A stretch of 64,000 nt of DNA. It comes from Pyropia yezoensis (Eukaryota > Rhodophyta > Bangiophyceae > Bangiales > Bangiaceae). A program made the position numbers and the translations under genes. The stretch lies in the NCBI GenBank assembly GCA_009829735.1, contig CM020620.1:26382951-26446950 (forward strand), in the 5' to 3' direction. Position 1 is the first letter of the stretch. Each line of letters begins with the position of its first letter. The notes below the pieces were generated by a model that worked only from the letters and a program-made list of their open reading frames with translations, searched no databases and had not been told where the DNA came from. This document shows, piece by piece, positions 2-33,689 of this stretch.

Positions 2-838
2 GGCGCCAACACGGCACGGACGAACTTCAGTCGACTGATGCATAGTATGTGCAAGTCCCTAGGGGACGCCTACCGGGTTCTACACCCGGAGTGTGCCTTG
101 GCCCCGAAGCCCAAGGGTGAGGGAGGCAAGCCCAGTCTTACCCCGGTACCGAGGCAAGAGAAGGTGGAACGCAAGGCCGCACCAGTGCTGGTGGCGACCG
201 AACATACCCCTATTGGTGAGGATGACCCTCTAGTCGACCAACAGGGCCACCTGTTGCTACCGGCGACGCCGGTGATTGATGAACACGGTACGGTAGCGTA
301 CATCGCCCCGGCTGGAACCCAGTTCCAGGTCAACGAAGGAACGGGACGGCGCGTCCCGTATGTGCGGACTACGGGGTACTCCCCGGTGACGGGTTACCCT
401 CACCAACCCTTGCCAACATGGGCGGTGCGCACGGAGGCACCTCCGCAGATTGTGGGCCGACCCAACCGGTTGGGGGAGTCCATGTTCCGGTTGACCCAAG
501 GACCCAAGGCTTACCAGGGAGCAGGCACTCGGGCGCCCGAGGGAGGCAACCGTAGCTACGGGGCTACCCCGATGCGACCTCAAGGGGGGACCGGCACGTC
601 CGGGTGTATGTTGTGTGGGGATCCCCAGCACTGGGTGTCTTCCTGCCCACTCATCATCGAGGAGTCTCGGCGGGCAGCGGCGCAACGCAAGGCATCCACC
701 GGGGGGTATCCCGCCCGAGCACCCGGACCCGCACCGGGTAGGCAGCCAGCTCCAGGTGGAGTACTGGCCGTCGAGGGGGCACCTCCTCAGCCGGATGTCC
801 CGGCGGACAGCACCCTACCAAGGGCGGGAAACGAGTAA
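2..838 (+). CDS. gag: Ty3/gypsy element 1 Gag, C-terminal part
   Basis: The frame is open from the left edge, so this is the C-terminal part of a Gag protein and the true start lies outside the window. A zinc knuckle of the CX2CX4HX4C type is visible around 607-650 (C-ML-C-GDPQ-H-WVSS-C), as expected of the nucleocapsid part of retroelement Gag, which packages element RNA. The rest is proline- and glycine-rich. The frame stops with TAA at 836-838, nine bases before the first ATG of pol, which is in the -1 frame. A slippery heptamer at 826-832 suggests a Gag-Pol fusion made by -1 frameshifting. The neighbouring pol confirms the identity. Confidence 0.85.
   Translation, partial: GANTARTNFSRLMHSMCKSLGDAYRVLHPECALAPKPKGEGGKPSLTPVPRQEKVERKAAPVLVATEHTPIGEDDPLVDQQGHLLLPATPVIDEHGTVAYIAPAGTQFQVNEGTGRRVPYVRTTGYSPVTGYPHQPLPTWAVRTEAPPQIVGRPNRLGESMFRLTQGPKAYQGAGTRAPEGGNRSYGATPMRPQGGTGTSGCMLCGDPQHWVSSCPLIIEESRRAAAQRKASTGGYPARAPGPAPGRQPAPGGVLAVEGAPPQPDVPADSTLPRAGNE
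826..832 (+). promoter_or_regulatory. Candidate -1 ribosomal frameshift site, element 1
   Basis: The heptamer GGGAAAC lies in the gag frame as G GGA AAC, followed by one sense codon (GAG) and the TAA stop. Pol is in the -1 frame. This fits the X XXY YYZ rule. Downstream, CCGGGG (851-856) can pair with CCCCGG (883-888) around a smaller TGGG/CCCA hairpin. The spacing of about 18 bases is longer than usual, so the stimulator is uncertain. Confidence 0.6.
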
Positions 839-846
839 GAGGAAGG

Positions 847-3800
847 ATGACCGGGGGGCGCTGGGGTCACCCAAGCAAGCCACCCCGGAGTACCGCGGGG
901 AAAGCCCCACGGAGAGCGCGGTTGAGCCGACGCCGCATCAACCCCCGGGTACACCTTCCGGCCCCGACGACACGGCGTCAGGGGATTGATGACCAACCTC
1001 CAAGGTTGGGAGGAGAGGACGGGAAGCCCCGTCACGTTGAACCAGACAAGGGCCCTGTTCAGGATGCCCGAGCTACACCGGATATCGGTGTAGGACATGT
1101 GTTGTTTACCTTGGAGAACTTCAAGGTATCAGCCACACTGGGGGTTGACCCCCAGTCGACACGATCGTACTACCCTGTACTGGACACAGGGGCTGGACCC
1201 AACCTTATCCGGAAGGATACCCTCCCGGACAAGTGGCTTCCACGAGTCAGAGTGACTCGGGGACCCACCATCAAGGACGCGAATGGTCGACTCATTCGTA
1301 CGACCGCAGCGATGTCGCTGCAGGTTACCATCGGGGATCTCACCACGGAAGTTGACTTCCTGGTATGTGAAACGCTATCGGTGCCCTGCATACTGGGGTG
1401 CACCTTCATCAACGTTCACGTTGATGCAATCCGGCCAGGCCGGAGGACCGTCGAGCTTCAAGAAGCCGACGGGACGAAGCGAGGACACACGGCTATCGTC
1501 AGGGAACTGACGCTACAAGGAAGCCACGTTAACGTGGCTGAGGTGTACGCAAGCGTCGAGCCGAAGACACTTCGGTTGGCCAAGCGAACTCGCTTTGAGC
1601 CGTTGTCAGAGACAGTCCTCCCGGTTAACTGCGACCTCGCAGGCATCTGCAGAGTCCAGTCCAACCTACGGACGTACAAGCGCCATGGGTTGACCATGGC
1701 CAACGGTCTCATAGACCTCCCAGCAGGAGGGTCGTCCCTCCTAGTGATGGCGAACTATCGCCGTAAGGCAGTCACCCTCCCGAAGGGAACTATCCTCGGG
1801 ATTGCCGAACTCTACGAAGGAGATATCCTTACCCCTGATAAGGAAGGTCAAGTGGAACCACTTGAAGTACTGGCGGTCGCCGAGACCACCGAGCGACAGC
1901 AAACCGATGACGGGAAGCCTAACCCATCGGCGGCTCCGGCGGACCTGCCGCCAAAGGACCAAGAGGCCTTGAAGGCACTGGCCGAGGCTGACCTCGACCA
2001 CCTTCCCCCTTCGGTAGCCGAATGGGTACGACGGATGCTAAGAAAGCATGACGTTATGTGGACAGGCGGGGCCTTGGGGACCATTGGGGCAACCCAACAT
2101 CGTATAGACCTGGTACCAGGCGCACGACCCGCCCGCTCACAACCGCACCGAGCGGGACCTATGCAACGAGAGATCGTTGATGGAGAAGTGAAGAGGATGA
2201 GTGAAGCTAAGGTGATCCGACCTTCGATGTCGGAATGGGGTGCCCCAGTCGTTATTGTGCCGAAGAAGGATCAAACTCCTCGGTTTTGCATCGATTATCG
2301 ACGCCTCAACTTGGTTACCAAGAAGGACTCATACCCTTTACCAAGGATGGATGAATGCATCGACTCCCTGGGGGAGGCTACGGTGTTTACCACCATCGAC
2401 TGCAATGCCGGATACTGGCAGATCCCGGTGGCGGACGAGGATATCCCCAAGACGGCATTCGTCTGTCACAGTGGAGTGTACGAGTTCCTAAGGATGCCCT
2501 TCGGATTGTCCAACGCCCCCGCTACATTCCAGCGGGCTATCGACATCATACTGTCGGGGGTGAAGTGGCGTAACTGCCTAGTGTACCTCGATGACGTCAT
2601 CGTCTTCTCGCGTAACATGGATGACCATGTACAACATGTTGACGAGGTACTTACCCTCTTGAGGAACGCCGGGGTAACCCTGCGTCTGAAGAAGTGCGCC
2701 TTCTTCCAACAGACGGTCGAGTATCTGGGCCACCAGATAACCCCTGGTAAGCTAGGGGTACTCGAAGCCAATACCCGGGCACTCCGGGATGCCCGGTTCC
2801 CTAACACCCAGACGCAGCTCAAGAGCTTCCTGGGAATGTGCAATGTATACCGACGGTTCGTCAAGGACTTCGCTCGGATAGCTAAACCGTTAACGGTTCT
2901 TACGAGCAGTACCTTACCCAAGGTACTCCAACCCCCTTCGCCTAGCGAGGAGGAGGCATTCGAGTCGCTGAAGCGAGCCCTACTAGCCCCACCCGTCCTT
3001 GCGTTACCGCATAGACGGGGTACCTTCGTCATCGATGTCGATGCGTGTGATACACAAGTGGGATGCACCCTGTTACAGGGAGAGACGTTGATCGGTACCG
3101 ATAACGTTATCCCGGACCTACGTCCGGTAGGGTACTTCAGCCGGACACTCAACCCGGCTGAGCGGAACTATAGTGCCACCGAGCGTGAATGCCTCGGAGT
3201 TATATGGGCAGTGCAACTGCTCCGTCCATACCTGGAGGGCTCCAGGTTCATCGTGAGGTCCGACCACGAACCCCTACGATGGCTCCTCAACCTTGGTGAC
3301 AAGGATTCCGATAGCCATGGGAGGCTAGCCCGATGGAGGCTGAAGATGGCCGAGCACGACTACCGCACGGTGTATAAGGCTGGGTCAACCCACCACCTCG
3401 GAGACGCGTTGTCTCGACTCGACACCCCGAGCGGGGATACCCGCCCGGTGGACGAGGACATCCCGGTAGGACCGGTGTGCATGGTGGGTAATGCTACCCA
3501 GGGTATGGCTGACCATACCATGGCACACCTTGCGTGCCCATTGACCCTCGCGGACTTCCGCGAGGCACAGGCCAACGACGATGACTGTAGACGTCATCGT
3601 GCTAACCTCCTGGCCGGTACGGCCGGCATCTTCTCCGAGAACGAAGACGGACTCATATACCGGCGGGCACCCGCCGATGGACGACATCAAGTCGTGGTTC
3701 CCGTGTCCTTACGGCAAGCCGTCATGGAACGAGAACATGAGAACCCTACAGCCGGACACCCGGGGGGTTCACGTATGTTCGCAGCAATGCGAAGGTTCTT

Positions 3801-5013
3801 CTACTGGCCAGCAATGGCCGTCGACGTGGTCGACCACGTAAGGGGATGCCACCCCTGTGCACGTAACCGCATGAGTCTACATAGGCGGGCGTCTGCCATG
3901 AAGCTATTCCCACCTGATGGGCCCAACGAGCAAGTCGCTATCGACATACTCGGGCCACTTCCGATAACGGAAGAAGGGAACAGGTACATCCTGGTCATGT
4001 CTGACCGCTTCACTAAGCTGTCAAGAGCGGCAGCCATCCCGAATGATACGGCATACACGATCATGAACGCAGTGGTTGACCACTGGATCAGTGCATACGG
4101 AGTCATGAAGCAACTCCTCTCCGATAACGGAGCAAACCTTACGTCGGCATTCTGCACTAAGGTCCTGGGCATGTTCGGTATTGAACCACGTCGGGCATCC
4201 GACTACCACCCGCAGTCCAACGGGCAGGTGGAGCGGTTCAACCGCACCATCGTCAAGATGCTACAGTGCTACGTGGCCGAGCACACGAACACTTGGGACA
4301 GGCTTCTGTCCGTACTCACCCTGGCATACAATGCCAGGCCACATCGGAGCACAAACATTGCTCCGCTGGAGTGGGTCATGCCACTAGGCGTCGGTAACTT
4401 GACGCTGCCACCTGGCAGGTGCACTCGGTATGATACACCGAAGGGCCGACCCGCCGAACGCATCCACCTAGCTTGGTTGGCCAAGCTATCGTGGATGATT
4501 CCTAAGCTCAAGGGTGCCCTTGACAGAACACAACTTCGGTATAAGAAGAACTTCGACGCCCGACTACGGGTGCGCAACGCAACCCTGGTAACAGGTGACT
4601 GGGTCTATATCAGACACCAGAAGTTCCGAGGGAACAAGCTTATGCAACCGGTCAAGGGACCGTACCAGATCCTCCACAGAGATGACCACTCTGTTATCTT
4701 ACACTCCGATACGGAGATTCAACGCATCAGCATGAATGATGTCACACCTGCTCCGATGCCGGAACAGCCTCAGCCGGTACCGGCCGGGTTGCTACATGAA
4801 GCTCTTACAACCCACCGGTCAGATGACCCGGTGGGACCGGATGGGATTCCATACCAAGTAGAGAGCGTGGTCGGACACACCGACCCGGACCTACCAGGAC
4901 CCTGGTACGTCAAGGTTATGTGGGTCGGATACGACTCACCCACCTGGGAACAGGCGGCAAATATACCCCGCCAACTCCTCATGCCGTACATGAGGCGACG
5001 ACGCCTACTGTAA
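847..5013 (+). CDS. pol: Ty3/gypsy element 1 Pol polyprotein with chromodomain
   Basis: This is an intact polyprotein of 1388 residues from the first ATG, although in vivo it is probably a Gag-Pol fusion made by frameshift. Domains in order are: aspartic protease (DTG at residues 113-115), reverse transcriptase (FCIDYRRLN near 480; YLDD at 580-583), RNase H (first Asp near 730), integrase with an HHCC zinc finger (near 975-1010) and a catalytic triad D1033, D1093, E1129 in DD35E spacing, and a C-terminal chromodomain (about 1335-1385). Chromodomains of this kind are known in chromoviruses, where they direct integration to marked chromatin. No frame break is seen, so the enzyme set may be functional. 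Confidence 0.95.
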   Translation: MTGGRWGHPSKPPRSTAGKAPRRARLSRRRINPRVHLPAPTTRRQGIDDQPPRLGGEDGKPRHVEPDKGPVQDARATPDIGVGHVLFTLENFKVSATLGVDPQSTRSYYPVLDTGAGPNLIRKDTLPDKWLPRVRVTRGPTIKDANGRLIRTTAAMSLQVTIGDLTTEVDFLVCETLSVPCILGCTFINVHVDAIRPGRRTVELQEADGTKRGHTAIVRELTLQGSHVNVAEVYASVEPKTLRLAKRTRFEPLSETVLPVNCDLAGICRVQSNLRTYKRHGLTMANGLIDLPAGGSSLLVMANYRRKAVTLPKGTILGIAELYEGDILTPDKEGQVEPLEVLAVAETTERQQTDDGKPNPSAAPADLPPKDQEALKALAEADLDHLPPSVAEWVRRMLRKHDVMWTGGALGTIGATQHRIDLVPGARPARSQPHRAGPMQREIVDGEVKRMSEAKVIRPSMSEWGAPVVIVPKKDQTPRFCIDYRRLNLVTKKDSYPLPRMDECIDSLGEATVFTTIDCNAGYWQIPVADEDIPKTAFVCHSGVYEFLRMPFGLSNAPATFQRAIDIILSGVKWRNCLVYLDDVIVFSRNMDDHVQHVDEVLTLLRNAGVTLRLKKCAFFQQTVEYLGHQITPGKLGVLEANTRALRDARFPNTQTQLKSFLGMCNVYRRFVKDFARIAKPLTVLTSSTLPKVLQPPSPSEEEAFESLKRALLAPPVLALPHRRGTFVIDVDACDTQVGCTLLQGETLIGTDNVIPDLRPVGYFSRTLNPAERNYSATERECLGVIWAVQLLRPYLEGSRFIVRSDHEPLRWLLNLGDKDSDSHGRLARWRLKMAEHDYRTVYKAGSTHHLGDALSRLDTPSGDTRPVDEDIPVGPVCMVGNATQGMADHTMAHLACPLTLADFREAQANDDDCRRHRANLLAGTAGIFSENEDGLIYRRAPADGRHQVVVPVSLRQAVMEREHENPTAGHPGGSRMFAAMRRFFYWPAMAVDVVDHVRGCHPCARNRMSLHRRASAMKLFPPDGPNEQVAIDILGPLPITEEGNRYILVMSDRFTKLSRAAAIPNDTAYTIMNAVVDHWISAYGVMKQLLSDNGANLTSAFCTKVLGMFGIEPRRASDYHPQSNGQVERFNRTIVKMLQCYVAEHTNTWDRLLSVLTLAYNARPHRSTNIAPLEWVMPLGVGNLTLPPGRCTRYDTPKGRPAERIHLAWLAKLSWMIPKLKGALDRTQLRYKKNFDARLRVRNATLVTGDWVYIRHQKFRGNKLMQPVKGPYQILHRDDHSVILHSDTEIQRISMNDVTPAPMPEQPQPVPAGLLHEALTTHRSDDPVGPDGIPYQVESVVGHTDPDLPGPWYVKVMWVGYDSPTWEQAANIPRQLLMPYMRRRRLL

Positions 5014-5091
5014 CAACCCAACCGACACCGACTTCGGCTGTTGGGGGGTGAGGCTTATACCTACTAAGTAGGGTGTGACGTGGGTACGGCA

Positions 5092-5187
5092 GACTTAGGT
5101 TTCTAAGTCAAATCAGACTTAGGTTTCTAAGTCGAACCAAGCTTAGGTAACTAAGTAGAGCTAAGCTTAGGTAACTAAGTAAAACCT
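5092..5187 (+). repeat. Four tandem 24-bp hairpin units
   Basis: Four units of exactly 24 bp (starting at 5092, 5116, 5140 and 5164). Each contains a short inverted repeat, CTTAG-GTTT-CTAAG in the first two and CTTAG-GTAA-CTAAG in the last two. They lie between the 3' end of pol and the 3' end of the antisense ORF, where two convergent transcripts would end. The stretch is much more AT-rich than its surroundings. Confidence 0.85.
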
Positions 5188-5257
5188 GAACCTCAATAAG
5201 TTAACTTAAAGGTAAAGGCTAACTCCGATAATATCGAAGTAACTAGGGAGCTTACAC

Positions 5258-5310
5258 GGGAGGATGACCTCCCCAAGCCAAGACACCAAGTGAGGGAGGA
5301 TGACCTCCCC
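5258..5310 (+). repeat. Two copies of a GGGAGG/CCTCCC hairpin
   Basis: The sequence GGGAGGATGACCTCCCC occurs at 5258-5274 and again at 5294-5310. Each copy folds into a six-base-pair GC stem with a four-base loop. It lies in the same intergenic space as the 24-bp hairpin array. Confidence 0.75.
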
Positions 5311-5491
5311 AAGCATGAACCTACCGGAAGAAGTTGGACGGGAGGCAAGGCACCACTGAGCCAGAAGGGGTACTCCCCAGGGCAGCAAACAGAGGCAAGC
5401 AATGCCCCCAAAAGGGATGAGTTTATACTCACTACTACCCGGCTACCATAAGGGTTGCCGGGGCCCTCCCCCGCACAAACAATAGCACTCC

Positions 5492-7939
5492 TCAGTGGGT
5501 AGACCCACTGCCCGAGGGAGGCCACTCACGCGTGAGCGCGTAGACCTCCGTGCTCCACCGGTCGGCAACGTCACGACGGTCGACCACCCGAGTTACCTCG
5601 GTGCATAGCTGGACGAGGGTGCTGCGGCCAGCCTCCACGTCCTCCAGAGCTTTCTGGAGGCGGTCCAGCACGCCACCGAAGCAACGCGCTGACCCAACCA
5701 GCGCAGCACCTGGGGGGATATCCCCCCAGCTAACAGAGAGACCCCCACGCATTGCGCGGGTAACAAGGGCGTCAACGCCCTCATACCAGAGACGGGGACC
5801 CCCGTCATGTAGGACAGGGGCGGGAGGTGACACTGGCGCAGCCAGAGGAGCCACAGGAGCCGACACGGCTACCACCGGAGCCGGTGGCACCTGATACGAG
5901 GCCCGGTAGGACCCTACCGAAGGGGCTCCACCGTAACCACGGCGGTACTCCGCCCGACGACGGGACACCTCACGCTCCCCACCCACAGAGCCCCACTCTC
6001 GGGAACGACGGCCAACCGCCGCCGGCATCGGGTTACCGAACCACGGAGCAAGGACCTGAAGAGGGTCATGGATAACCATGGGAATACCCAGGTCAGGAAC
6101 GGCCTCGGTGGACGCCCACCCATGGCAACTAGGCTCACCCGGCTGAGTACGCCGGACACGCAACGAGTGACGAGGCAAGGGGGAAGCCCCAGCCTGCGGG
6201 TCCCGGGACGGGGGAAGGGCCAACACCCCAGCCCAGTTCACGGCATCGTGAACAGCCAGCAGGGCTTCGAACTCCCGGGCCAACCCGGTCTTGGCAGCTG
6301 TCAGATCCACGCCCAACTGCGCGATGTGCCGACGGACACCCGTCGGAAGATGAAACAGACGACCCTGCCGGCGGACGGACAGCAAGAAGGATGAAGCCTG
6401 CCCGAGGGTAACCTCAAGGGTGACGGTACCCTGCAACGGGTGGACCGGTCGCGAGGCCAACACACTCCCGAAGTAGCGAAGGCAGGAGCCGGTGTCAAAC
6501 CGGAAAGCAGGGGCGGGTTCCCACCCCTCCTGCCATAGCGGCGGGCGCACGGGAGTGTATACCGGAGCACGACCGTTGCCGGTCTGCAACGCACACGTTA
6601 TATCCGTGCGGAACGCATCCGCCATGACACCATGGTTACGTCGCCAACTCGACGCCGACTTCAACCCCGCCATGGGCGGGTAGGGAGCCGTCAACGACAG
6701 ATACGGGGGTACCCCCGGGTAGTAGTCAAAGTCGGGATACCGACCGGTACGGCTCACCGTCTCCCCAAACGCAACCGGCTCCGCCGCCGCCGCAATCCCC
6801 CGAGCACTAGCCGGGTAGTCAATCTCCCGCGGCAACGCGGGGGCAATCAGGTCGCAGACCCCGAAGTTGGGGTCGAGGTAGACCTCACCCCGTCCCACCC
6901 GGGTGCGCCAGAGCTGCGCATGCCGGTCGTCCGGCTGACTCAGGATCCAATGGTGTTCCACCCGGACCGCGTTCGGCTGGTTGACCAGCCGCACCAACTC
7001 CCGCTCCCAGCTCGGGTCCACCTTGACGCGCCGGGAGGACTCTCCACGGGGATGCACCAGGTGGAAGTCCACCCGCATACGCCCATCGGACTCCATCGAC
7101 TCTTGCACCGTGAGGCCTCGAACCCGAGCCACCAAGTCGGACACCGACATGGCGGGTTGACCCGCCGCCACGGCGACGCCGCCACCCAACGGGGCAACCC
7201 GGGCAGGACCAGGAAGAATCGGGGGCGCCGGGGGACGCACCACCGGCAGAGGGGCCGACGTCGGAGATTGACGAGGCCGAGGAGGAAGAAGAAGGGCGGG
7301 CGCCCGCCCGGAGTAACTCCCGGTGTCAACCGCCATGGGAGAAGGAGCGTCTTGACCGCTCGACACCCGCGGCACCGCAGGTACGGTACCGGCGCCGGCA
7401 CCACCCGTCGGCGTAGCCCCCGCCTCGGAAGGGGAAGGCACTTGGACAGCCTCCGGAGCCGGCGCCCCGGCCGTGCGGACACCCGCACCGTCTTGACCCG
7501 CCGCACCGGGTGTCGCACCGCCACCACCACCCGCGTCAACGTCGGGACCGCCTCGAGGAGTCACCGCCCGGACACCCGGACCACCTTGACCAGCCGGAGT
7601 CGGCTGCGGGTCGCCACCTCCGCCGCAGGGCGGACCATCTTGAGGTAGCTGCGGTGAGCCGGCACCGGCACCAGGCTCCATCCGGGCAGCCGGCAGAGAG
7701 GGGGTAGAAGCCGCCACGCGCGGTTGACCGCCGGGTTGACCGCCGGCCGACGGCACCGTCGTGCCGCTGCACACGGACGACAGTCCTCCGGCCGACAGAC
7801 GGACGGACACCGCAGGCCCGTCGTCGTCAGACGAGCTCACCCCGTAACGCGCGGCGTCGGGACCGACAGGCGCGTCGTCCTCCATCTCCTCCCCGATCAG
7901 GAGGTCTTCCTCCTCTCCAAGCACCTGGGGATAGGACAT
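5492..7939 (-). CDS. Antisense third ORF of element 1, unknown function
   Basis: A protein of 815 residues if started at the ATG at 7939; an in-frame GTG upstream (8035) is less likely in a eukaryote. It runs opposite to pol, between pol and the 3' LTR. The N-terminus is acidic, followed by about 200 residues rich in Pro, Gly and Ala, then a more complex domain from about residue 260. I recognise no known family. The complex part shares ordered motifs with the antisense ORF of element 2: PPYL, then FGSV, then about 29-30 residues, then an RRxGxLxHLP-like segment, then a conserved tryptophan about 36-38 residues on. GC-rich DNA often has long chance frames, but homology between two diverged elements argues for a real gene. 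A product would need an antisense transcript, perhaps starting near the 3' LTR. Confidence 0.7.
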   Translation of the reverse strand: MSYPQVLGEEEDLLIGEEMEDDAPVGPDAARYGVSSSDDDGPAVSVRLSAGGLSSVCSGTTVPSAGGQPGGQPRVAASTPSLPAARMEPGAGAGSPQLPQDGPPCGGGGDPQPTPAGQGGPGVRAVTPRGGPDVDAGGGGGATPGAAGQDGAGVRTAGAPAPEAVQVPSPSEAGATPTGGAGAGTVPAVPRVSSGQDAPSPMAVDTGSYSGRAPALLLPPRPRQSPTSAPLPVVRPPAPPILPGPARVAPLGGGVAVAAGQPAMSVSDLVARVRGLTVQESMESDGRMRVDFHLVHPRGESSRRVKVDPSWERELVRLVNQPNAVRVEHHWILSQPDDRHAQLWRTRVGRGEVYLDPNFGVCDLIAPALPREIDYPASARGIAAAAEPVAFGETVSRTGRYPDFDYYPGVPPYLSLTAPYPPMAGLKSASSWRRNHGVMADAFRTDITCALQTGNGRAPVYTPVRPPLWQEGWEPAPAFRFDTGSCLRYFGSVLASRPVHPLQGTVTLEVTLGQASSFLLSVRRQGRLFHLPTGVRRHIAQLGVDLTAAKTGLAREFEALLAVHDAVNWAGVLALPPSRDPQAGASPLPRHSLRVRRTQPGEPSCHGWASTEAVPDLGIPMVIHDPLQVLAPWFGNPMPAAVGRRSREWGSVGGEREVSRRRAEYRRGYGGAPSVGSYRASYQVPPAPVVAVSAPVAPLAAPVSPPAPVLHDGGPRLWYEGVDALVTRAMRGGLSVSWGDIPPGAALVGSARCFGGVLDRLQKALEDVEAGRSTLVQLCTEVTRVVDRRDVADRWSTEVYALTREWPPSGSGSTH

Positions 7940-8514
7940 GATAACGGGTGCGGAGTCCCCCCACGCCCACAAGCCGTCGACGGCTACGACCCGGTACGGT
8001 GGGATAACCGGGACGAGCCAGGGAAGCGCGGGCACCCGCGCTTATGACCACAAACGGCTACGAGAAGCGCCACAAACACGCGGGTCGACCCGCGCCCCAC
8101 GGGGCTACGAACGCGCTCCACCCAGGCACCTGGGCGGGACGGGGCCACCCCCACACACGGGGTAAGCAAAGGGGGGTCACCCCCAACCGCCCCCACGCAA
8201 CGCGGGCAGCCCCCGCCCCCCACTCAATCGTCCACACGAGAGGGGTCCCCCTACCACCAGGCACCTGGTGGCGGATCCGTTTGCACCACCCCTCGGAAAG
8301 GGGGGTCGTGAACAAAAACCCGCATCGGGAAATTAACGGTCCGAAAAACGGATCGTGTGTGTACCACACAAAGGGGGGCACCCCCCTCGGACAACCTCGA
8401 AAAGGGGTGTCTGTCGCGACGGGGCGCAAAGCCCCACCCGACGGGTAAACAGTCACGCGACCCACTTACATTCGGTAACCCGAATGCAACTCGACCCGAG
8501 GACGGGCCGAATCT
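7940..8514. other. Non-coding spacer between antisense ORF and 3' LTR, element 1
   Basis: No convincing coding frame. The stretch is rich in short G and C runs (CCCC and GGGG blocks). It would be the 5' leader or promoter region of the antisense gene and the 3' untranslated part of the sense transcript. I see no clear TATA box. Confidence 0.5.
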
Positions 8515-8526
8515 AAGGGGGGGATA
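8515..8526 (+). promoter_or_regulatory. Polypurine tract of element 1
   Basis: A purine-only run (AAGGGGGGGGATA, one T) ends directly before the TGTAGCA that begins the 3' LTR. This is where plus-strand DNA synthesis is primed in LTR elements. Confidence 0.7.
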
Positions 8527-8890
8527 TGTAGCAATATGGTTGTCCGTATTGTGACCCTAATATTAGGGGGGGCTACTTCTAATCCTTAACTCTCAATTTG
8601 AGAGTCCGTACTGGTCACGGTATCTATAAGTTACGTATGACCAGAGGGACTTGCATCTTGGGGTGGAGGGTAGTTAGTAGTGTCTCCGAGGGTTTATAAC
8701 GAGGGGGCCGGTGGCGAATCCACCGCCGGCCAAGGTAGAACAACAAACCCCTCCCATTTGGGCTCCCATCTTGGTCCCGTGGCTTGCGCTCCAAGGACAG
8801 CAACCTTGGCCTCCCGGTGACGTTGGTGCCGATCCCCCTTGGTGAGTGTTCCCTGACAGTGGACGTGCGACGGATTCCTATTGTGCTACA
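8527..8890 (+). repeat. 3' LTR of Ty3/gypsy element 1
   Basis: The LTR starts TGTAGCA and ends TGCTACA, a perfect seven-base inverted repeat with the usual TG...CA ends, giving 364 bp. It follows a polypurine tract. The flank beginning GCGGG at 8891 is the interior of a dispersed host repeat that has other copies in the window, so the insertion point is clear. The 5' LTR is outside the window. Confidence 0.85.
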
Positions 8891-10359: not shown

Positions 10360-10408
10360 CTCCTGTTCCCGCTCCTGTTCCCGCTCCTGTTCCCGCTCCT
10401 GTTCCCGC
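10360..10408 (+). repeat. 12-bp tandem repeat, four copies
   Basis: The unit CTCCTGTTCCCG is repeated about four times without change. Confidence 0.85.
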
Positions 10409-12236: not shown

Positions 12237-12908
<672 letters not shown>

Positions 12909-24392: not shown

Positions 24393-24786
24393 TCCTCCCC
24401 CTGCATTTGGGTCCATATTCCCTAAGTTCGGGATAGTTAGCTTAGTAGTAAATCCAACTTGGATTTGAGGGTTTTCTGCATTTATCGTCTTGAATTTTCG
24501 TGTGGCCCGGTGGGCAGGTGCTGGGGTGGGAGATTCTGAGTGGCGAGATTCTGAGTGGACCCTGGGGGGATAAGGGGAGGGACAGCGGGGCTTGGCCCTG
24601 CGTCCCCGTCCCGACCAAGAAACTGTTGGACCACACACCATCTTCTTGTTTGTCCGTGGGGGATTGCCCCACAACAGGGATAGAGTGTGTGCGACTTGCA
24701 CTTCTTTCCGGTTCCCCCGACACGGGAGGCAGCCCTCGCACACCGCCCCAACTTGGGTACTGTGTGTGCGAGTGGTTTTTGCCACA
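24393..24786 (+). repeat. 5' LTR of element 2 (partial)
   Basis: 394 bp matching the right part of the LTR at 33222-33689 and ending TGCCACA. I see only two differences from the 3' copy: a run of five instead of six G near 24658 and three instead of two T near 24706. Such similarity means a very recent insertion. Confidence 0.9.
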
Positions 24787-24905: not shown

Positions 24906-26846
24906 ATGGCTAGCTCGGACCCCCCGTCGTCCGGGGAGTACACGGGTGACGCACGTACTTCAGTGCCTTTGAATACTGGTGAGACACAGGTGGGTTTACC
25001 TGGGGTCGCAGAGGGACTAGAGGTCCCTCAAGCCAGCAGGACTGGAAGTGCGGGCGGGCAACAGGCCACCCCGACTCAGTCGGGAGTTCACTCGGGTGAC
25101 ACTTCTGACGTGGGTGGGCCGAAGTCTGGCCACCGTGGTATACTCAACGGGAACGTCCCAAGGGGTGAGGACTGTCCCCGCGCGTTCCACTCGGGTTGGA
25201 GCCAACTTTGGCATGGAGCCATCGCCAACTAGGCTTTCGGAGGACGGCGGACCTCCGTTGGTCGGCGATGGGCTCGCGCCCATGCCCCCGGTTGAGACCC
25301 CTGAGGAACGTGGTTACCCCTCAGGTGGACTCCCGGAGGTGGACCGAGACTCAACTGGAGTCGTCAATCCACTCCTCGCGGAAACTGTCCGTCGGGAGGC
25401 GACCACTGTGTTGCGGCAGACTTTGCCGGACCTGGTGGTCACGATGACGAATACTATTCTGAATCAGATTGTGGCGAGTTTGCCAGATGGCCTTAATGTC
25501 CAGACCGGATGGGGCCTTCGAGCCCGCAGGCGCAGGGGGTGCCCCCCCTGACACCTATCTCGGGTCGCCCTGAACAGGGGGCGACCCCTGTGACTCCCAA
25601 CGAGGGAGCCACCACCATACTCGGTGGGGCGTACGCCCTTCACGGGGGAGTTCCCCCCGACAACACCGGCGGCTACACCAAGCGCGCCGCGCCGGACTAC
25701 AGGCACTGTGGGTGAACTTACCCCAGTGCCACAGCGGCTGTTCCCTCAACGTGAGGTGCCGCCAAGATCCAGGTAGCCAACCGGTCTACCAGAGGATCTT
25801 TGACTGTGAGACCTACGCCCTCCACAACAAGTCGGTGGCGTACGGTCCCATTCAGGCCCGAGCCATGGGCCGTGCAAAGAAGAATGCACTTCACTCTTTG
25901 GGCACAAAGCGGAGTGGGATGGAACTCCCCCCTCCGTGTCTTTGAGTTCCTACGTCGTTTCACAAAAGCCTGTGACGACAATGCCATAAGTGAAGGCATG
26001 GCTTTTTACATGCTACAGGAGTTTACGAAGGGAGACCTGCGGACAGAACTTATGTCCGTCATGCCCAGCTCCTCAAGTGGAGGCGCTGGGGAGGTGACGT
26101 CCTATTTGGAGCTCGTCAACTGGTTGTTGAGGGCCATGGTTGATGAAGCGGCGTTGGCTTCTCAAGTCGAGGAGTTTACGCAAGCCCATCAGGAAGAGGC
26201 GGAGGACGAGTTGTCCTTTGCGGAGCGAGTCCGTAAGCTCAACAATCTTTGTGGGTTTCTTCATCCACAAGCTGTGGTGAAGAGTCGGTTTGTGGAAGGA
26301 CTCCACTGGTCAGTCCGGATGGAGACCCGGGAGCATAACACTGCCCGGGCGACCCTGGCCGAGTTGGCTAGGTTCGCCTACCGCAGAGGCGAGGCCTACC
26401 GCAAGTTGCGGGAGGAACAACGCCAGGAGCGTCAGGCCGAGTTGGCCAAGGAACGGGAAGAGGCGCGCCAGGCCAGAGAGTTGCGAGAGGCACGCCGAAT
26501 CCGCAAGGAGAGGGTGGTAGCTGCCGTGGGAACTTCCCAAGGTACCTCGTCGTCTTCCCCAGTTGGGAAGACCCCTCCGGGAACTGATCATCGGTGTTGG
26601 AACTGCAACTCCGATGGTCACTGGGCATATGATTGCCCCAAGTTGAGTAAACGCATCCAACAGCTTGTTAGGAATGCGAGTAAGAAGTCGGCTACGAACG
26701 AAGTGCGTTCACGCCGCGAGGGTGGGTCTCGACCAGTGGTGGCGGTCGCCACACCCTCGACGGAGGGGGCGGACACGTCGTCCTCGGACTCGTCGTCGTC
26801 CCCTTCGCCCTCAGATTCGGACGCCAAGTCGGCGGGAAACGAATGA
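24906..26846 (+). pseudogene. gag: Element 2 Gag, frame interrupted
   Basis: The ATG at 24906 (AACATGGCT, like element 3) begins a Ser/Thr/Gly-rich N-terminal part. The frame then changes about four times: near 25.15-25.2, 25.51, 25.7 and 25.93 kb. From about 25940 to the stop at 26844-26846 the frame is clean. That part has the capsid-like region (FEFLRRFTKACDDN, then SYLELVNWLL and FAERVRKLNNLCGFL), a Lys/Arg/Glu-rich helix and a zinc knuckle C-WN-C-NSDG-H-WAYD-C. Element 3 has a matching Gag without breaks. The breaks lie near C or G runs and may be sequencing errors, since the LTR pair is almost identical and pol is intact. Confidence 0.8.
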
Positions 26847-26879
26847 CCGTTGGAGCTGGTCGTCCGAAGCTCACAACGG
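26834..26879 (+). promoter_or_regulatory. -1 frameshift signal: slippery site plus hairpin, element 2
   Basis: The heptamer GGGAAAC (26834-26840) is read as G GGA AAC in the gag frame, followed by GAA and the TGA stop. Six bases later a hairpin begins: CCGTTG (26847-26852) and GAGCT (26853-26857) pair with AGCTC (26868-26872) and CAACGG (26874-26879), 11 base pairs with one bulged A and a ten-base loop. Heptamer, spacing and stem match known -1 signals. The pol ATG overlaps the gag stop (ATGA), so reinitiation is an alternative. Confidence 0.75.
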
Positions 26880-29800
26880 CAGCCTCGGCCAAGTGGGCCA
26901 AGAGGACGAACCAACCGTGTCGGATACTGCGGCGACCTAAGGGAGTCCGCCCACCTCGGGTAAGACTTCCCAAGAACGTAAACCCACGTCGGGTCATCGC
27001 GGTGCTGACGGGTGAGAACTTCCAGGTGGCTGGACGGGTGCAACTTGCCCCCGGCCGCGCCTGTTGTGTCCGTATCGTACTTGATACCGGGTCAGGAGCC
27101 TCCTTGATACGCAAGTCGCTATTACCAAGGGGGATGAGGCTCCAACGCTGGAAGTCTAAAGCTGACCATCTGATCGATATCAATGGTGGGGTACTTCCCA
27201 TCGTTGGTGCCGTGACCCTACCAACTCGGTTGGGGACCCATGAGGTCGACGTGACCTATGGTGTAGTTGAGAATATATCGGTACCCCTGCTTCTGGGTAC
27301 CCCTTATGTCGTAACACAAGTGCCTTTGATTTGTGGCCCTGAGTACTGGGTCAAGTTGATGAATGGGGAGACTATCCCCATCCTTGGTAAGGGAAAGTCT
27401 GTGGCTCCTGTGACAGTTTCACAGTCGAAGCCTGTTTGTTCTGTGAGGGAAGGGTTTACTGCTACTCTGCGTTTAGCCCGTAAAGTCATGTTGCCCCCCA
27501 ACTCGGTGGCGCACGTGGATGTTGTAACTGATTATGCGGGGAACGGGTTGGTGCACCCTAACCCCCGTCTTGCTCGCAAGCACCAAGTGCATGTTGCCCT
27601 TGGCACGATGGACTCCAAAGCCGGAGTCCCGTGGAGGATCCAGGTGATGAACCTGAGCTCGTCGCCTAAGTTCTTCAAGTCAGGGGCCAAGTTCGGCTAT
27701 ATCGACCAACACGAGGGACCGGTAGTAGCGGTCACCCTCAGCGCGGGCGCAAGTAGCGACCCGAAGTCCGGAAAGGAGAAGCATCAAGCCAAGTCGGCCG
27801 CCTCTCCTCGGCCCCAGGTAAACATGGAGGGTGTTCCACCCAGGTTGAGGGTTCAAGTTGAACGCCTCTTGGACCAATATCACAAGTTGTGGGATGGTCA
27901 ATTGGGACTCATGAGAGCTACCCAACACCGGATCGAGTTGAAACCCGGTGCGCCCCCTATACGCCAACAACCGTATAGGGGGGGACCCCGTTCAAGGGCC
28001 CTCGTTAAGGAGCAAGTTGCTCGCATGGAGGCCCTCGATGTGATCGAGGCCAGCAACGCCGAGTGGGCGAGTCCGGTGGTGATCGTCCCCAAAGTTGATG
28101 GGACCCCCCGGTTCTGTATCGACTACCGTAAGCTCAACGAGAGCACGGTGAAGGATAGTTATCCCCTACCTCGGATGGATGACTGTCTGGACTCTCTGGG
28201 GGAGGCAAACGTGTTCTCTACCCTGGACTGTAACGCGGGGTACTGGCAAATTCCCATTGCCCCGGAGGACAGGCATAAAACTACCTTTACCTGTCACTGT
28301 GGTACCTACCAGTGCAAGCGTCTACCGTTTGGCCTGTGTAACGCGCCGGCAACTTTCCAGCGCGCTATGGACATGATTCTGGCCGGAGTACGGTGGCAGA
28401 TCTGTCTCGTGTACCTAGACGATATCATTGTGTTCTCCCGAAGTCCGGAGGAACACATTGGCCATCTTGGCCAGGTGTTCAAGCTACTTGCTGACGCCGG
28501 AGTGTCACTGAAGGCGAGTAAGTGCCACCTCTTCACTCAAGAGGTGGAGTACTTGGGACATGTTGTCCGTCCGGGGCGTCTCAGTGTCAACGAGAAAAAC
28601 TTGAGGGCCATCCGCAAGGCTCAGTACCCCCGGACCCAGACCCAGATGAGGAGCTTCCTCGGGATGTGTAACGTGTACCGACGTTTCACTAAGTGCTTCG
28701 CCAAAGTGGCGAAGCCGTTGAATGAGTTAGTGAGCTCAACGCTACCGAAGAACCTGCCTCCCCCAAGTCGGGTGGAGCAGGAATCCTTTGAGACTCTTCG
28801 GGACCTTCTGCTGAAGCCCCCTATCCTGGCTATTCCCAGGTTGGGAGGCCACTACATCCTGGATGTGGACGCTAGCTACGACCAACTTGGTTGTGTGTTG
28901 CTTCAGCAACAGCCGGACAAGGAGTACTTGCCGGTGGGATACTTCAGCAAGGGGCTAAACTCGGCCGAGAAGAACTACGGAGTCACCGAGTTGGAAGGAC
29001 TCGCAGTGGTATGGGCGGTGACGTCACTTCGTCACTACCTAGAGGGTGAGAAGTTCCTCATCCGCTGTGACCACCGCGCGTTGCAGTTCATCTTCAAGAC
29101 GGACTGTACGAACACTCGTCTCAACCCGTGGAGGGTGCGACTTGCACCCTTCAACTTTGATATTGAGTACCGACCTGGCAGGCAACATGCCCTTGCCGAC
29201 GGCCTCTCTCGGGTACCTACCGAGGGACTGGACACAACCCCAGTCGATGAGGACATCCCCATCGTGGGGGTAGTCACGCGCTCGGGTCAGGCGTTGAATC
29301 CCGAGGCGCCAGGGAACAAGAAGTACTTGCCCCTGTCCCTGGACGAAGTAGTGAAGGCCCAGGCCGAGGATCCCTTCTGCAAGTCGCAGAGGGATACCCT
29401 GGATACAGTGGCGGAGACGCGGTTCTTCCTGGGAGACGATGGCCTCCTCATGAGGAGGGGGGTATTCCAGGGGACCGAACAACTTGTCGTCCCCGCATCC
29501 CTCAAGGACAGTATCCTTGAGAGGGAGCACAACGCTCCCACGGGTGGACACCTGGGGTCTAGTAAACTGTACCAGACCCTGAGGACCAGGTACTACTGGC
29601 CGTCCATGGTGGTGGACATCTACAGTTGGGTGGCTGCCTGCACAAGTTGTGCACAGAACCGTCTGATGGAACGGCGGCCTACTACGGCTATGCTATTGTT
29701 CCCGGCCAAGGAGCCCTTCGCCGCGTTGGCGATGGACATCCTTGGGCCACTGCCAGTGACCGAGGAGGGCAACCAGTACCTCCTGGTCATCTGTGACCGC

Positions 29801-30826
29801 TTCACGAAACTTACGCGAGCGATCCCACTGGCAGAGATCACGGCCATGTCGGTCGTGTCAGCCTTCCTAGATCACTGGGTTGCCGCGTATGGCATTCCGG
29901 ATAGTACACTATCGGACAATGGACCGCAATTTGCGTCTGTACTGTTTCAGGGAGTGCTGGATATGTTGGGGGTTAAGGCAAACTATGCCACCGCCTACCA
30001 CCCACAAACTAATGGGCAGGTGGAGCGCTTCAACAAAACTATTGTTAGGCAGCTGCGCCATTATGTGAGTGAGCACGTGAAGACGTGGGACCAATACATT
30101 TCTATTCTGACCACTGCCTACAATTCGCAGGTTCACTCATCTACCGGGGAAGTACCCCTCGCTTTTGTGACCCCCCGTCGCGTGCGGTCTATTGCCGTGC
30201 GGCGGCCGCTCCCAACTAGGGAGGATGGTGGCAGTACGCCCACTCCTACTGAGAGTAAGGCGGAGTTCGCTGCTAGGCTTGAAAACCTCATCCCTAAAGT
30301 CAGGGCTGAGATGGACAAAGCACAAAAGCGCTACAAGCGTACCTTTGACAAAAAGGTGCGCAACGCCAAGCATGTCCCCGAGCAGGGTGACTGGGTATTG
30401 GTCCACTCACACACCCCAACTGGGGGTAAGTTGGTGTTCCAGACGAAGGGGCCGTACCAGGTCCTTCGTACTGATGGGCGGCGCTTCACCATCGAAAGTG
30501 ACGATGGGGTCCGCACAGTGAACGGACAGGACGTGGTCAAAGTTGCACCACCGCCTGCAGGCGACCCAGCTTGGGCGCGTGCTTTGAAAACGTGGCGCCT
30601 GCCCTCGCTGCCTGCAGCCAAACAGGGCCCGCAGGAGTACGTGTTCGACAAGTTCATCGACCACGGCTGGGATGAGGATACTGACCGCCTCATGTTGAGG
30701 GTGCGTTGGTTTGGCTACAAAGCCAAGGATGATACGTGGGAGTATGTGGAGGACCTTCCTGCTGAGAAGGTCCGGGCGTACTGTGCCCGGAACGAGATAG
30801 ACCCTAACAGCCCTCCCTCAACGTGA
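26843..30826 (+). CDS. pol: Ty3/gypsy element 2 Pol polyprotein with chromodomain
   Basis: An intact polyprotein of 1327 residues counted from the ATG that overlaps the gag stop. Domains are: aspartic protease (DTG at 81-83), reverse transcriptase (FCIDYRKLN; YLDD at 524-527), RNase H (ILDVDAS), integrase with an HHCC finger and triad D965, D1025, E1061 (DD35E), and a C-terminal chromodomain from about residue 1265. It is colinear with Pol of element 1 but clearly diverged. All catalytic residues I can check are present, so the element may still be able to move if Gag is really intact. Confidence 0.95.
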   Translation: MTVGAGRPKLTTAASAKWAKRTNQPCRILRRPKGVRPPRVRLPKNVNPRRVIAVLTGENFQVAGRVQLAPGRACCVRIVLDTGSGASLIRKSLLPRGMRLQRWKSKADHLIDINGGVLPIVGAVTLPTRLGTHEVDVTYGVVENISVPLLLGTPYVVTQVPLICGPEYWVKLMNGETIPILGKGKSVAPVTVSQSKPVCSVREGFTATLRLARKVMLPPNSVAHVDVVTDYAGNGLVHPNPRLARKHQVHVALGTMDSKAGVPWRIQVMNLSSSPKFFKSGAKFGYIDQHEGPVVAVTLSAGASSDPKSGKEKHQAKSAASPRPQVNMEGVPPRLRVQVERLLDQYHKLWDGQLGLMRATQHRIELKPGAPPIRQQPYRGGPRSRALVKEQVARMEALDVIEASNAEWASPVVIVPKVDGTPRFCIDYRKLNESTVKDSYPLPRMDDCLDSLGEANVFSTLDCNAGYWQIPIAPEDRHKTTFTCHCGTYQCKRLPFGLCNAPATFQRAMDMILAGVRWQICLVYLDDIIVFSRSPEEHIGHLGQVFKLLADAGVSLKASKCHLFTQEVEYLGHVVRPGRLSVNEKNLRAIRKAQYPRTQTQMRSFLGMCNVYRRFTKCFAKVAKPLNELVSSTLPKNLPPPSRVEQESFETLRDLLLKPPILAIPRLGGHYILDVDASYDQLGCVLLQQQPDKEYLPVGYFSKGLNSAEKNYGVTELEGLAVVWAVTSLRHYLEGEKFLIRCDHRALQFIFKTDCTNTRLNPWRVRLAPFNFDIEYRPGRQHALADGLSRVPTEGLDTTPVDEDIPIVGVVTRSGQALNPEAPGNKKYLPLSLDEVVKAQAEDPFCKSQRDTLDTVAETRFFLGDDGLLMRRGVFQGTEQLVVPASLKDSILEREHNAPTGGHLGSSKLYQTLRTRYYWPSMVVDIYSWVAACTSCAQNRLMERRPTTAMLLFPAKEPFAALAMDILGPLPVTEEGNQYLLVICDRFTKLTRAIPLAEITAMSVVSAFLDHWVAAYGIPDSTLSDNGPQFASVLFQGVLDMLGVKANYATAYHPQTNGQVERFNKTIVRQLRHYVSEHVKTWDQYISILTTAYNSQVHSSTGEVPLAFVTPRRVRSIAVRRPLPTREDGGSTPTPTESKAEFAARLENLIPKVRAEMDKAQKRYKRTFDKKVRNAKHVPEQGDWVLVHSHTPTGGKLVFQTKGPYQVLRTDGRRFTIESDDGVRTVNGQDVVKVAPPPAGDPAWARALKTWRLPSLPAAKQGPQEYVFDKFIDHGWDEDTDRLMLRVRWFGYKAKDDTWEYVEDLPAEKVRAYCARNEIDPNSPPST

Positions 30827-30937: not shown

Positions 30938-32881
30938 CTAGGCACGCATGCTAGACTCTCCCACTCCACGGCCCTCGCCCTCACGTGGAGGCGAGCGGCG
31001 AGACCCACGCCGATAACGGTCTCCACTCGTTGGAAGGGGCGGCGGCTCCAAGTCGGAACCGTCGCGCCCCTCACGGTCGCGCAAGTGGCGCCGACCGTGG
31101 CTACTCTTCTGCCTGGTCTTGCGCGCAAGTTTGCGACGCAGACGCTGGACAGACTCCGTCTCCGATGGGGTAGAGGACTCCGAGACGGAGTAAGACAACT
31201 CGTCTTCCGACACGGAGGGAGAGCGCCGCGAGTGACGGCGACGACGGCGAGGAGGCGAGTATGCCCGGCTCGCACGACGCTTGCCACGCCCAAGTGGGGT
31301 TGGCTGGGGCATAATAGCCCCAATGCGAGCCAACTCGGCCGTCATAAACTCCGCCACCGACTCGCAACTCGCGGTCGCCACTGCAGTACGAACGCGCTCC
31401 TCAAGTTGAGGAGTCTCGGAACTTTGGAGGGTTGCGGTCGACGCGGCCAACCAGGAAATGGTGCGCACCAACGTGGTGATCATCATCTCTGAGGTTAGAG
31501 GCGTGGGCGGTAACACCAACTTGGGGTATACTGTCAGGAGGGTGGCCCCCAAGTTGGGAGACACCGGTGTGGATGACTCCACGGCCACGCTGATCGGGAT
31601 GTTCCCGTGAGGCTGGAAAGGAACAGGAGGAAGCGGAGGGGCCCGCCGAGGTGGCGGTACCCGGGTGTAACTGCGACCCCGACTTGGGGCCCCCGCAGTA
31701 GGTTGAGTCATATGGTCATCATATGAGGGCACAGCCATAACTATGGGCTTGTCCGGGGGTGGCGCAGTGTGACGATCCACCCCCGGGGCATACGGGTAGT
31801 CCCCGATGCCCAACCCCTCTCGTAGGACCACACGGCCGTCGTGAAGTTCACGAGCGACCCATACGAACTGGCGAAGTGCGCCATCGTCCTTGGGCCCCCG
31901 AGTGGGGCGGCGCAACTTGTGCTCAATGCTCTCCCACTCGATAAACTTGTGGAGGCGGAGCATCTCCTCAAGTAGAGTGAGTTGTCCTGACGAGCACCCC
32001 TCAGCAACTAGCTGAGGGGTGAGCTGTTCCAAACCCTGGATGAGCCGGAGGGGGAGATGCCAGAGCATCCCCCGCCGCTGAACACATGACACCCAGGTCG
32101 ACATGACCTCGAGGAGCCACTGGGTGGCCAACATGGCCCACACCAGATGATCAGGGCCAGCCGTGAACATGACGGAGCCGAAGTGGTCAAGCAACCGTGG
32201 CAACAATGCCGGGAACCCGTAGGGGACCTCAACTTGAGGCCACCACTCGGGCTTCTTCGGGTAGTATTGCTCCTTACTGGCAGCAGACTGCTGAGGAAAC
32301 TCAAGTTGAGCCGAGGTCACCAAGTAGGGACCTCGCCGGAAGTCCTTCTCCATCCGCACATCAAAGTGATGAGTGTGCGGGTCGGCCTCGTGAAGGTACG
32401 GGGGGCGAGTTGCCACCGCGTCCCAAGTGAAGGTCGGCAAGTCGCCGGGACCCGGGATAGTTCCCCCGCGGTCCACCATGGCCTTGGCCCGCTGCACGTC
32501 CTCGACCTCCTCGTCGTCCAGGAAGGCAAACTGGTCCGTCCTGAAGCCGGCAGGGAACCCGACCCTACGGGGATACTTCTCCCGTAGGCGGTCCCATACC
32601 CGACCCATCGCTGCGCCGAGTCGGCCACAGCGAAGAACAGTCAACCCCTCCTCATACAGAGGCCAAGCGGGGTAAAACCACCGCCCCAAGGCCTCACGCG
32701 GGACAACTTGTCCCGCCTCCGGGGGAGATCCTGCCGTCAACCCAAAGCCGGGTGACGCGGGAGTCCCACCCCCCGGAGCGATCGCGGAGCCCCCGCCGGA
32801 AGTCCCGGCAGGCGCTGCACCGTAGGAGGTGTCCTCCATACGCTCATCGAGAGAGTCCGTCTCCACTCCCGGAGTCGCCAT
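30938..32881 (-). CDS. Antisense third ORF of element 2, unknown function
   Basis: A protein of 647 residues from the ATG at 32881, which has a strong eukaryotic start context (GAGCCATGGCGA). It is encoded opposite to pol, between pol and the 3' LTR, like the antisense ORF of element 1. An acidic and Gly-rich N-terminus is followed by a folded-looking domain (about residues 90-370). That domain shares the PPYL, FGSV and QRRGMLWHLP-type landmarks and their spacing with element 1. The C-terminal third is rich in Arg and Ser (YSPPRRRRRHSRRSPS), like RNA-binding SR proteins. No family is recognised. Function might be in RNA binding, regulation or movement, but the sequence does not say which. Confidence 0.75.
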   Translation of the reverse strand: MATPGVETDSLDERMEDTSYGAAPAGTSGGGSAIAPGGGTPASPGFGLTAGSPPEAGQVVPREALGRWFYPAWPLYEEGLTVLRCGRLGAAMGRVWDRLREKYPRRVGFPAGFRTDQFAFLDDEEVEDVQRAKAMVDRGGTIPGPGDLPTFTWDAVATRPPYLHEADPHTHHFDVRMEKDFRRGPYLVTSAQLEFPQQSAASKEQYYPKKPEWWPQVEVPYGFPALLPRLLDHFGSVMFTAGPDHLVWAMLATQWLLEVMSTWVSCVQRRGMLWHLPLRLIQGLEQLTPQLVAEGCSSGQLTLLEEMLRLHKFIEWESIEHKLRRPTRGPKDDGALRQFVWVARELHDGRVVLREGLGIGDYPYAPGVDRHTAPPPDKPIVMAVPSYDDHMTQPTAGAPSRGRSYTRVPPPRRAPPLPPVPFQPHGNIPISVAVESSTPVSPNLGATLLTVYPKLVLPPTPLTSEMMITTLVRTISWLAASTATLQSSETPQLEERVRTAVATASCESVAEFMTAELARIGAIMPQPTPLGRGKRRASRAYSPPRRRRRHSRRSPSVSEDELSYSVSESSTPSETESVQRLRRKLARKTRQKSSHGRRHLRDREGRDGSDLEPPPLPTSGDRYRRGSRRSPPREGEGRGVGESSMRA

Positions 32882-33221: not shown

Positions 33222-33689
33222 TGTGGCAGTATTGACCCCCAGGTAGGGGGCAACACGTGCCATGCAAGGGGCGGCAGGCCACTAGCCTGATCCGTTCCTC
33301 CCCCTGCATTTGGGTCCATATTCCCTAAGTTCGGGATAGTTAGCTTAGTAGTAAATCCAACTTGGATTTGAGGGTTTTCTGCATTTATCGTCTTGAATTT
33401 TCGTGTGGCCCGGTGGGCAGGTGCTGGGGTGGGAGATTCTGAGTGGCGAGATTCTGAGTGGACCCTGGGGGGATAAGGGGAGGGACAGCGGGGCTTGGCC
33501 CTGCGTCCCCGTCCCGACCAAGAAACTGTTGGACCACACACCATCTTCTTGTTTGTCCGTGGGGGGATTGCCCCACAACAGGGATAGAGTGTGTGCGACT
33601 TGCACTTCTTCCGGTTCCCCCGACACGGGAGGCAGCCCTCGCACACCGCCCCAACTTGGGTACTGTGTGTGCGAGTGGTTTTTGCCACA
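33222..33689 (+). repeat. 3' LTR of Ty3/gypsy element 2
   Basis: 468 bp starting TGTGGCA and ending TGCCACA, a perfect seven-base inverted repeat. Its right 393 bp match the visible 5' LTR apart from two one-base length differences in homopolymers. The right flank begins ATGAG; the left flank is in the gap, so no target duplication can be checked. Confidence 0.95.

Follow-up and report, generated by a model that had tools for sequence, protein, structure and literature searches.

The window analysed here is a 64,000-nucleotide stretch of the genome of the red alga Pyropia yezoensis (C3:26382951-26446950), in which two diverged Ty3/gypsy retrotransposons, elements 1 and 2, each carry a long open reading frame (ORF) that sits between pol and the 3' long terminal repeat (LTR) and is antisense to gag-pol. 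Element 1 is already within gag where the window begins. The end of this gene lies at 38..838 on the plus strand, directly upstream of pol, and includes a CCHC-like knuckle with a weak zf-CCHC_2 match in Pfam (E 0.023, below cut-off); its start is outside the window. The pol gene follows at 847..5013 (plus strand; 1388 amino acids), with Pfam matches to protease, reverse transcriptase, RNase H and integrase, of which that to protease is below cut-off. The antisense gene, encoding a protein of 815 amino acids (P0001), occupies 5492..7939 on the minus strand, the conserved central domain of its product (residues 355-580) corresponding to 6200..6877 (minus strand). The 3' LTR (8527..8890, plus strand) has the ends TGTAGCA...TGCTACA, which are shared by full-length copies in L008, L009 and L019. 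These and the other L-numbered loci are stretches sampled from the P. yezoensis genome (107.5 Mb), which was also the genome searched for copies.

In element 2, the 5' LTR (24393..24786, plus strand) has lost its start in a run of N (23893-24392). A gag part at 25800..26846 (plus strand) carries a CCHC zinc knuckle (zf-CCHC, E 1.2e-5, above the Pfam cut-off) and is followed by a pol of 1327 amino acids at 26843..30826 (plus strand), which has reverse transcriptase, RNase H and integrase matches in Pfam and a chromodomain-like C-terminal end (Chromo, E 9.6e-4, 19.5 bits and so below the cut-off of 25.1); the element 1 pol has no Chromo match. The antisense gene (30938..32881, minus strand) encodes 647 amino acids (P0002), with the conserved central domain (residues 90-325) at 31907..32614 (minus strand), and repeat and LTR comparison places the 3' LTR, TGTGGCA...TGCCACA, at 33222..33689 (plus strand). 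Both antisense frames run from ATG to stop, and their coordinates show that both genes converge on pol, as the preliminary description of this locus had it. The start codons lie 587 bases (element 1) and 340 bases (element 2) from the 3' LTR.

Two further observations concern the same genes. By eye, the start of the element 2 gag (24900-25800) is seemingly not one open frame; this copy has an open antisense ORF. Directly after the element 1 pol, downstream of the antisense stop, are four tandem units of 24 bases (5090-5185), the first two of which carry GACTTAG-GTTT-CTAAGTC hairpins. These units could play a role in 3' end formation.

Homology and relatives of the antisense proteins

Frames of this length are not expected by chance. 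The longest ORFs in 500 order-2 Markov sequences for each region reached 474 amino acids (element 1 region) and 455 amino acids (element 2 region), and these lengths, together with the ratios of nonsynonymous to synonymous substitution rates (dN/dS) given below, rule out a chance ORF. The preliminary description had also claimed a middle domain with landmarks in the same order and spacing in the two proteins, and this stands: counted by eye on the translations, PPYL and FGSV are followed after 29 or 30 residues by RRQGRLFHLP (P0001) or QRRGMLWHLP (P0002), and then after 36 or 38 residues by a tryptophan, which is not evident in the alignment of a third family (element 5, see below). P0001 and P0002 are 24% identical over 230 amino acids in BLASTP (E 3e-10), and comparison of the two family alignments as profile hidden Markov models (HMMs) with hhalign gives a significant match (probability 84%, E 7.2e-6) between residues 382-572 and 129-319. 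The central parts (P0001 355-580 and P0002 90-325) score far above 1000 shuffles (z 18.5), none of which reached the observed score, whereas the N-termini, the 575-700 stretch and the C-termini did not differ from the same number of shuffles. Because only the centre beats the shuffles, the homologous part is a single domain of about 225 residues with unrelated or unalignable arms. In a six-frame comparison of the two regions, the two antisense frames matched each other clearly (E 9.5e-9) and no other pair of frames did so (0.017 and 0.029 for the next two); at the DNA level the regions did not match. A coding sense strand is ruled out, since the clear match between the elements is in the antisense frames only. 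Taken at the level of sequence, these comparisons confirm that the antisense ORFs of elements 1 and 2 are homologous.

The same genome holds a third family with the gene. Element 5 (on C2) has an antisense frame of 761 residues, counted stop to stop, at C2:18899-21181, after pol; its pol pieces compare with P0003/P0004 at 43-56% identity (L025) and 34-40% identity (L021). The centre of its antisense protein matches P0002 in BLASTP (25% over 138 residues, E 2e-8) and gave no match to P0001 with an E limit of 10. When a domain HMM that excluded element 5 was run on the frames of the sampled loci, it recovered the element 5 antisense frame at E 8e-4 and a further fragment on L008 at E 1e-3, while the L004 copy related to element 5 reaches only 0.35; in those loci it matched nothing else except genes used in its building or their copies. 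Comparison of pol groups elements 1, 2 and 5 with the element on L001 (51-63% identity) and sets the L012/L023 family apart (31-34%), the pol of element 3 being about 31-35% identical (L003). The pol tree is unrooted and includes 9 of 14 rows, five (element 3 among them) falling below the coverage limit, and the age of the antisense gene is therefore only suggested.

The L001 element (L001:3000-9100, "element 4") represents a further Ty3/gypsy family, with a pol 63% identical to that of element 2 in the reverse transcriptase-integrase region; no antisense homologue was found in its remnant, and its pol is followed after about 1 kb by the start of another element. At L023:2242-5799 (minus strand) there is an open pol frame of 1186 residues from a distant family (about 30% identical to elements 1 and 2), flanked on one side by a pol piece like that of element 1 and on the other by an LTR of element 1 type; L023 gave no antisense match. 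As for element 3, the window copy and the L003 copy both end before the antisense region.

The protein matches listed are few. A search with residues 280-640 of P0001 (about 5.8 billion proteins; best 8000 candidates scored) lists eight proteins. Two, from the sources lgn and ena, match at 95%; the other six are annotated as 'hypothetical proteins' in Pyropia vietnamensis and are 52-61% identical over 20-95% of the query. The central domain of P0001 and that of one P. vietnamensis protein (P0008) align without gaps, with 141 of 226 residues identical. For P0002 the sole match listed is a 97% twin (best 8000 candidates in one search, 1358 candidates in the other), and no fungal relative is among the matches listed for either protein. 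Scans of viral sequences and genome contigs with P0001, P0002, alignment A2, P0003 and P0004 revealed no relative. Searches of Pfam (E up to 10), NCBIfam and PDB found no family for the antisense proteins that was above cut-off or convincing, in agreement with the earlier claim that the domain has no recognised relative: DUF6214 was rejected as an identity (E 0.052, below cut-off), and of two PDB profile searches the first gave no match and the second a single match at E 0.54. A tblastn search for pol in plasmids gave 15 records, all below 60% identity.

Purifying selection on the antisense gene

The preliminary description had proposed testing for dN/dS below 1 among copies, and such values are seen in three families. 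Nei-Gojobori estimates in the antisense frame, with partner copies from stretches taken without a search, are 0.25 between element 5 (residues 209-761) and the L004 copy (547 codons, dS 0.54, dN 0.137, p 6e-29), 0.19 between element 2 and its L012 relative (444 codons, p 1e-26) and 0.40 between element 1 and L009 (815 codons, p 0.010). In the first two comparisons three codons each were set aside for stops, and the frames of L004 and L012 are in pieces. Across these comparisons, four of the five control frames have dN/dS values of 0.80-2.26. The remaining control, a sense frame, has values of 0.31, 0.27 and 0.57, with 22-27 stops; we infer that its third positions coincide with the wobble positions of the antisense gene. 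Together, these substitution patterns show that the antisense gene is under purifying selection at the amino-acid level in three families.

Nine copies of element 1 tell a similar story, with 30 nonsynonymous and 41 synonymous distinct changes (ratio 0.28, p 1e-7), although this ratio is biased downwards because seven of the nine were best protein matches. By part of the protein the ratio is 0.51 (residues 1-250), 0.21 (251-580) and 0.23 (581-815). The contrast between centre and N-terminal part recurs between P0001 and P0006, where residues 251-580 are 94% identical and residues 1-250 only 62%, with 36 further positions gapped (p 1e-21), and, more weakly, between P0001 and P. vietnamensis P0008 (62% versus 44%, p 0.006). 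A codon-position test on the protein alignment was partly circular and carries no weight.

Open copies are common among the best matches in the genome. Of 36,269 first-look candidates for P0001, 55 copies were scored, all covering residues 1-815 or 2-815 at 98-100%; the window copy included, 51 of the 55 have no stop, and the remaining four have one TGA. A 393-residue piece of the element 5 protein gave 106 matching stretches (105 of 2462 candidates scored) at 78-100% identity, 87 of them free of stops and 19 interrupted by one to three; two of these stretches belong to one copy, and some cover only part of the piece. Intact copies are over-represented in both sets, because only best-scoring matches are included.

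Proposed role and rival explanations

Antisense ORFs between pol and the 3' LTR have been described in Retand, Grande, RIRE2 and PvRetro13 and in fungal Boty (PMC7264820; PMC11963269). Among them, the aORF-3R of plant Retand resembles the genes described here in being antisense, long and placed between pol and the 3' LTR, as do Grande gene23 and RIRE2; it is kept in nearly all young copies and is described there as having no known function (PMC11963269; PMC7264820). The resemblance, which the preliminary description had drawn to plant Ty3/gypsy elements, is one of layout and does not extend to the protein. The TRP28 domain (PF04195), present in 97% of Retand clusters, is reported in that account from flowering plants only (PMC11963269), whereas the host here is a red alga. 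TRP28 membership is ruled out for the red-algal proteins: PF04195 gave no match to P0001 and P0002 with an E limit of 1, nor to five proteins or pieces with a limit of 10, a scan in which most weak matches above about 0.1 are filtered out. Retand is moreover described as a non-chromovirus; the element 2 pol has the below-cut-off chromodomain-like end noted above, and the element 1 pol has no Chromo match. Boty of Botrytis also has an antisense gene between pol and the 3' LTR, and does so outside plants (PMC7264820). The likeness is one of layout, and no fungal relative is among the listed protein matches.

HBZ of HTLV-1 and other retroviral antisense proteins are likewise encoded by an antisense gene near the 3' LTR, but the red-algal proteins have no bZIP or other Pfam domain above cut-off. 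The acidic N-terminus of P0001 and P0002, whose residues 1-50 carry a net charge of -11 and -5 respectively, is a loose parallel with HBZ. No red-algal antisense third gene is described in the listed matches among titles and abstract starts of open-licence literature, and the main text of the P. yezoensis genome paper contains no word beginning 'antisense' or 'gypsy' (PMC7423979). Genes of this kind are therefore already known, but the protein family and the red-algal setting look new. Earlier antisense third genes come from flowering-plant and fungal elements and from retroviruses, and those in the elements have no known function. A further one, kept by selection in at least three families of a red-algal Ty3/gypsy lineage and matching none of the known protein families compared, points to genes that arise repeatedly and are of use to the element. 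P. yezoensis is a cultivated seaweed with a genome of 48% repeats, among which LTR retrotransposons predominate (PMC7423979), and this puts tests of function within reach.

We regard it as almost certain that this is a genuine, working protein-coding third gene, antisense between pol and the 3' LTR, of a Bangiales Ty3/gypsy lineage. The preliminary interpretation is supported in part. Its core now stands on firmer evidence, namely one antisense third gene common to diverged Ty3/gypsy families, kept by purifying selection, whose domain has no recognisable relative; two conditions that would have refuted it, lack of a profile match between the proteins and lack of purifying selection, do not hold. 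Its suggestion of a regulatory or trans-acting role is still tentative. Given that selection has kept the protein working, it probably aids copying or expression of the element. The best explanation as a whole, which we consider fairly probable, combines the genuine antisense gene with a role for its product as a nuclear, trans-acting accessory regulator. An antisense mRNA would start at a promoter that lies either within the 3' LTR or in the adjoining leader, between the LTR and the start codon, and the protein, built of a conserved central domain and fast-evolving low-complexity arms, would enter the nucleus and act in trans on its own family, with transcription, escape from silencing or nuclear steps of the element cycle as candidate roles. 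A nuclear accessory role appears the likeliest by analogy with the gene23 protein of maize Grande, which is reported to be nuclear and made from its own promoter (PMC7264820). The nuclear mechanism taken by itself is put forward tentatively, and several observations weigh against it: a basic C-terminus is clear in P0002 only (residues 501-600 have a net charge of +14, in an arginine/serine-rich end); P0008 as annotated lacks the acidic start (+2 in residues 1-50); the Pfam, NCBIfam and PDB searches gave no match above cut-off to DNA- or RNA-binding families; and the palindromes considered below, the only cis feature found throughout an element, are missing from element 5, which has the gene.

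The main rival, which we think unlikely, is that the product works in the particle as a structural or replication accessory, either as a second capsid- or nucleocapsid-like protein or as an integration cofactor. The central part is conserved and of ordinary, high-complexity composition, as would suit such a protein, and the arginine/serine-rich tail of P0002 would be suited to nucleic acid. However, there is no profile match to the gag of elements 1, 2 or 3 (hhalign probability 0.1%, E 0.6), which rules out a gag copy; element 2 already has a sense gag with a zinc knuckle; and an antisense mRNA cannot belong to the gag-pol polyprotein.

It is less probable again that the gene is a captured host gene, or the remnant of another mobile element that was nested in an ancestor and is carried passively. 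The antisense orientation fits a chance insertion, no relative was identified outside such elements, and the P. vietnamensis proteins could in principle be host genes; on the other side, the listed protein matches comprise only the 95-97% twins and those P. vietnamensis proteins, and passive carriage is excluded by the purifying selection in three families. Capture or a nested remnant could account for the origin of the gene but not for its present state.

Some LTR elements, micropia among them, are known to make antisense transcripts that lack coding capacity (cited in PMC7264820), and the antisense RNA might itself be the main product here, silencing or tuning the sense transcript while the ORF is secondary. 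This we consider highly improbable, as it is largely refuted by the dN/dS values: the amino-acid constraint in three families and the open frames in most listed matches argue that the protein is needed. An envelope-like gene is scarcely credible, since despite the position between pol and the 3' LTR the orientation is antisense and none of three proteins has a clear transmembrane segment (highest 19-residue hydropathy means 1.37, 1.23 and 1.39).

Palindromes and other features of the window

A second, separate puzzle is the abundance of palindromes. Counting perfect inverted repeats with arms of at least 6 and loops of 1-8, element 1 (1-8858) has 114 against 19.9 +/- 4.3 in 20 shuffles, and element 2 has 64, its shuffles giving 21.2 +/- 5.0. 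The repeats run through coding and non-coding DNA of both elements (1-8890 and 24393-33689). A mild excess is seen in other parts of the window (97 against 73.6 +/- 8.9 and 62 against 43.7 +/- 6.5), the element 3 piece shows none (5 against 4.7), and the density drops at the end of element 1. Synonymous-codon shuffles (60 each) do not account for the palindromes of four genes: element 1 has 12 in gag (3.5 in shuffles), 63 in pol (12.2) and 27 in the antisense gene (8.4), and the pol of element 2 has 28 (8.6). The excess is weaker in the element 2 gag (6 against 2.3) and antisense gene (11 against 5.1) and absent from a host gene (3 against 4.8) and the element 3 gag (5 against 5.0). The two elements differ in the form of the repeat: element 1 prefers even-length centres closed by G-C (71 of 92 with a 4-base centre), whereas element 2 prefers odd centres (C-AASTT-G) around C[AG]A[CG]T[TC]G, of which it has 51 sites (5.5 per kb versus 0-0.9 elsewhere in the window). 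The L001 element is palindrome-rich with even parity, family N (the L012 and L023 pol) shows a slight excess only, and neither element 5 nor the element 3 copy is rich in palindromes.

The palindromes may stem from a mutational process in reverse transcription or may be binding sites. Hairpins in RNA from one strand are not favoured, because the types of mismatch show no preference for G-T. In three comparisons of close copies, divergence is lower in the arms than around them; the three more distant comparisons do not show this. Compensation between arms is not clear: one region (128 pairs) has 38 one-sided breaks and three two-sided kept pairs, and four of five other comparisons have no two-sided kept pair, the LTR having one.

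VANDALs are DNA transposons. In those of Arabidopsis, the element-encoded anti-silencing protein VANC is associated with short, family-specific DNA motifs, which offers a possible parallel (PMC5735166). By this analogy, the antisense protein might be a family-specific DNA-binding regulator that recognises the palindromes of its own element, those in coding DNA included, protein and sites having diverged together and element 5 having lost its palindromes or changed its site. We think this very doubtful. A motif dense in the encoding element holds for elements 1 and 2 but not for element 5, and the likeness is drawn from description rather than sequence; the motifs of VANC21 are described as lying mainly in non-coding DNA and in one orientation (PMC5735166), whereas here they are palindromic, occur in coding DNA too and are not found in element 5. 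That element, with its antisense gene and no excess, rules out a tight link, and the palindromes and the gene are accordingly not tied to each other.

The remaining features of the window are minor. Near-identical primer-binding-site sequences follow the 5' LTR in element 2 (24787) and in element-1-type copies (L008:8726; L019:421), offset by one T between these different families. Diverged direct repeats of about 110-185 bases occur within 8861-18722, and the first of them overlaps the element 1 LTR at its end. On the minus strand, 55395-57257 is a host gene that encodes a 620-residue pyridine nucleotide-disulphide oxidoreductase. Element 3, a third Ty3/gypsy element, starts within 61487-64000, with gag at 61487-63370 (a frame listed from GTG) and, from about 63397, the protease portion of pol, which the end of the window truncates.

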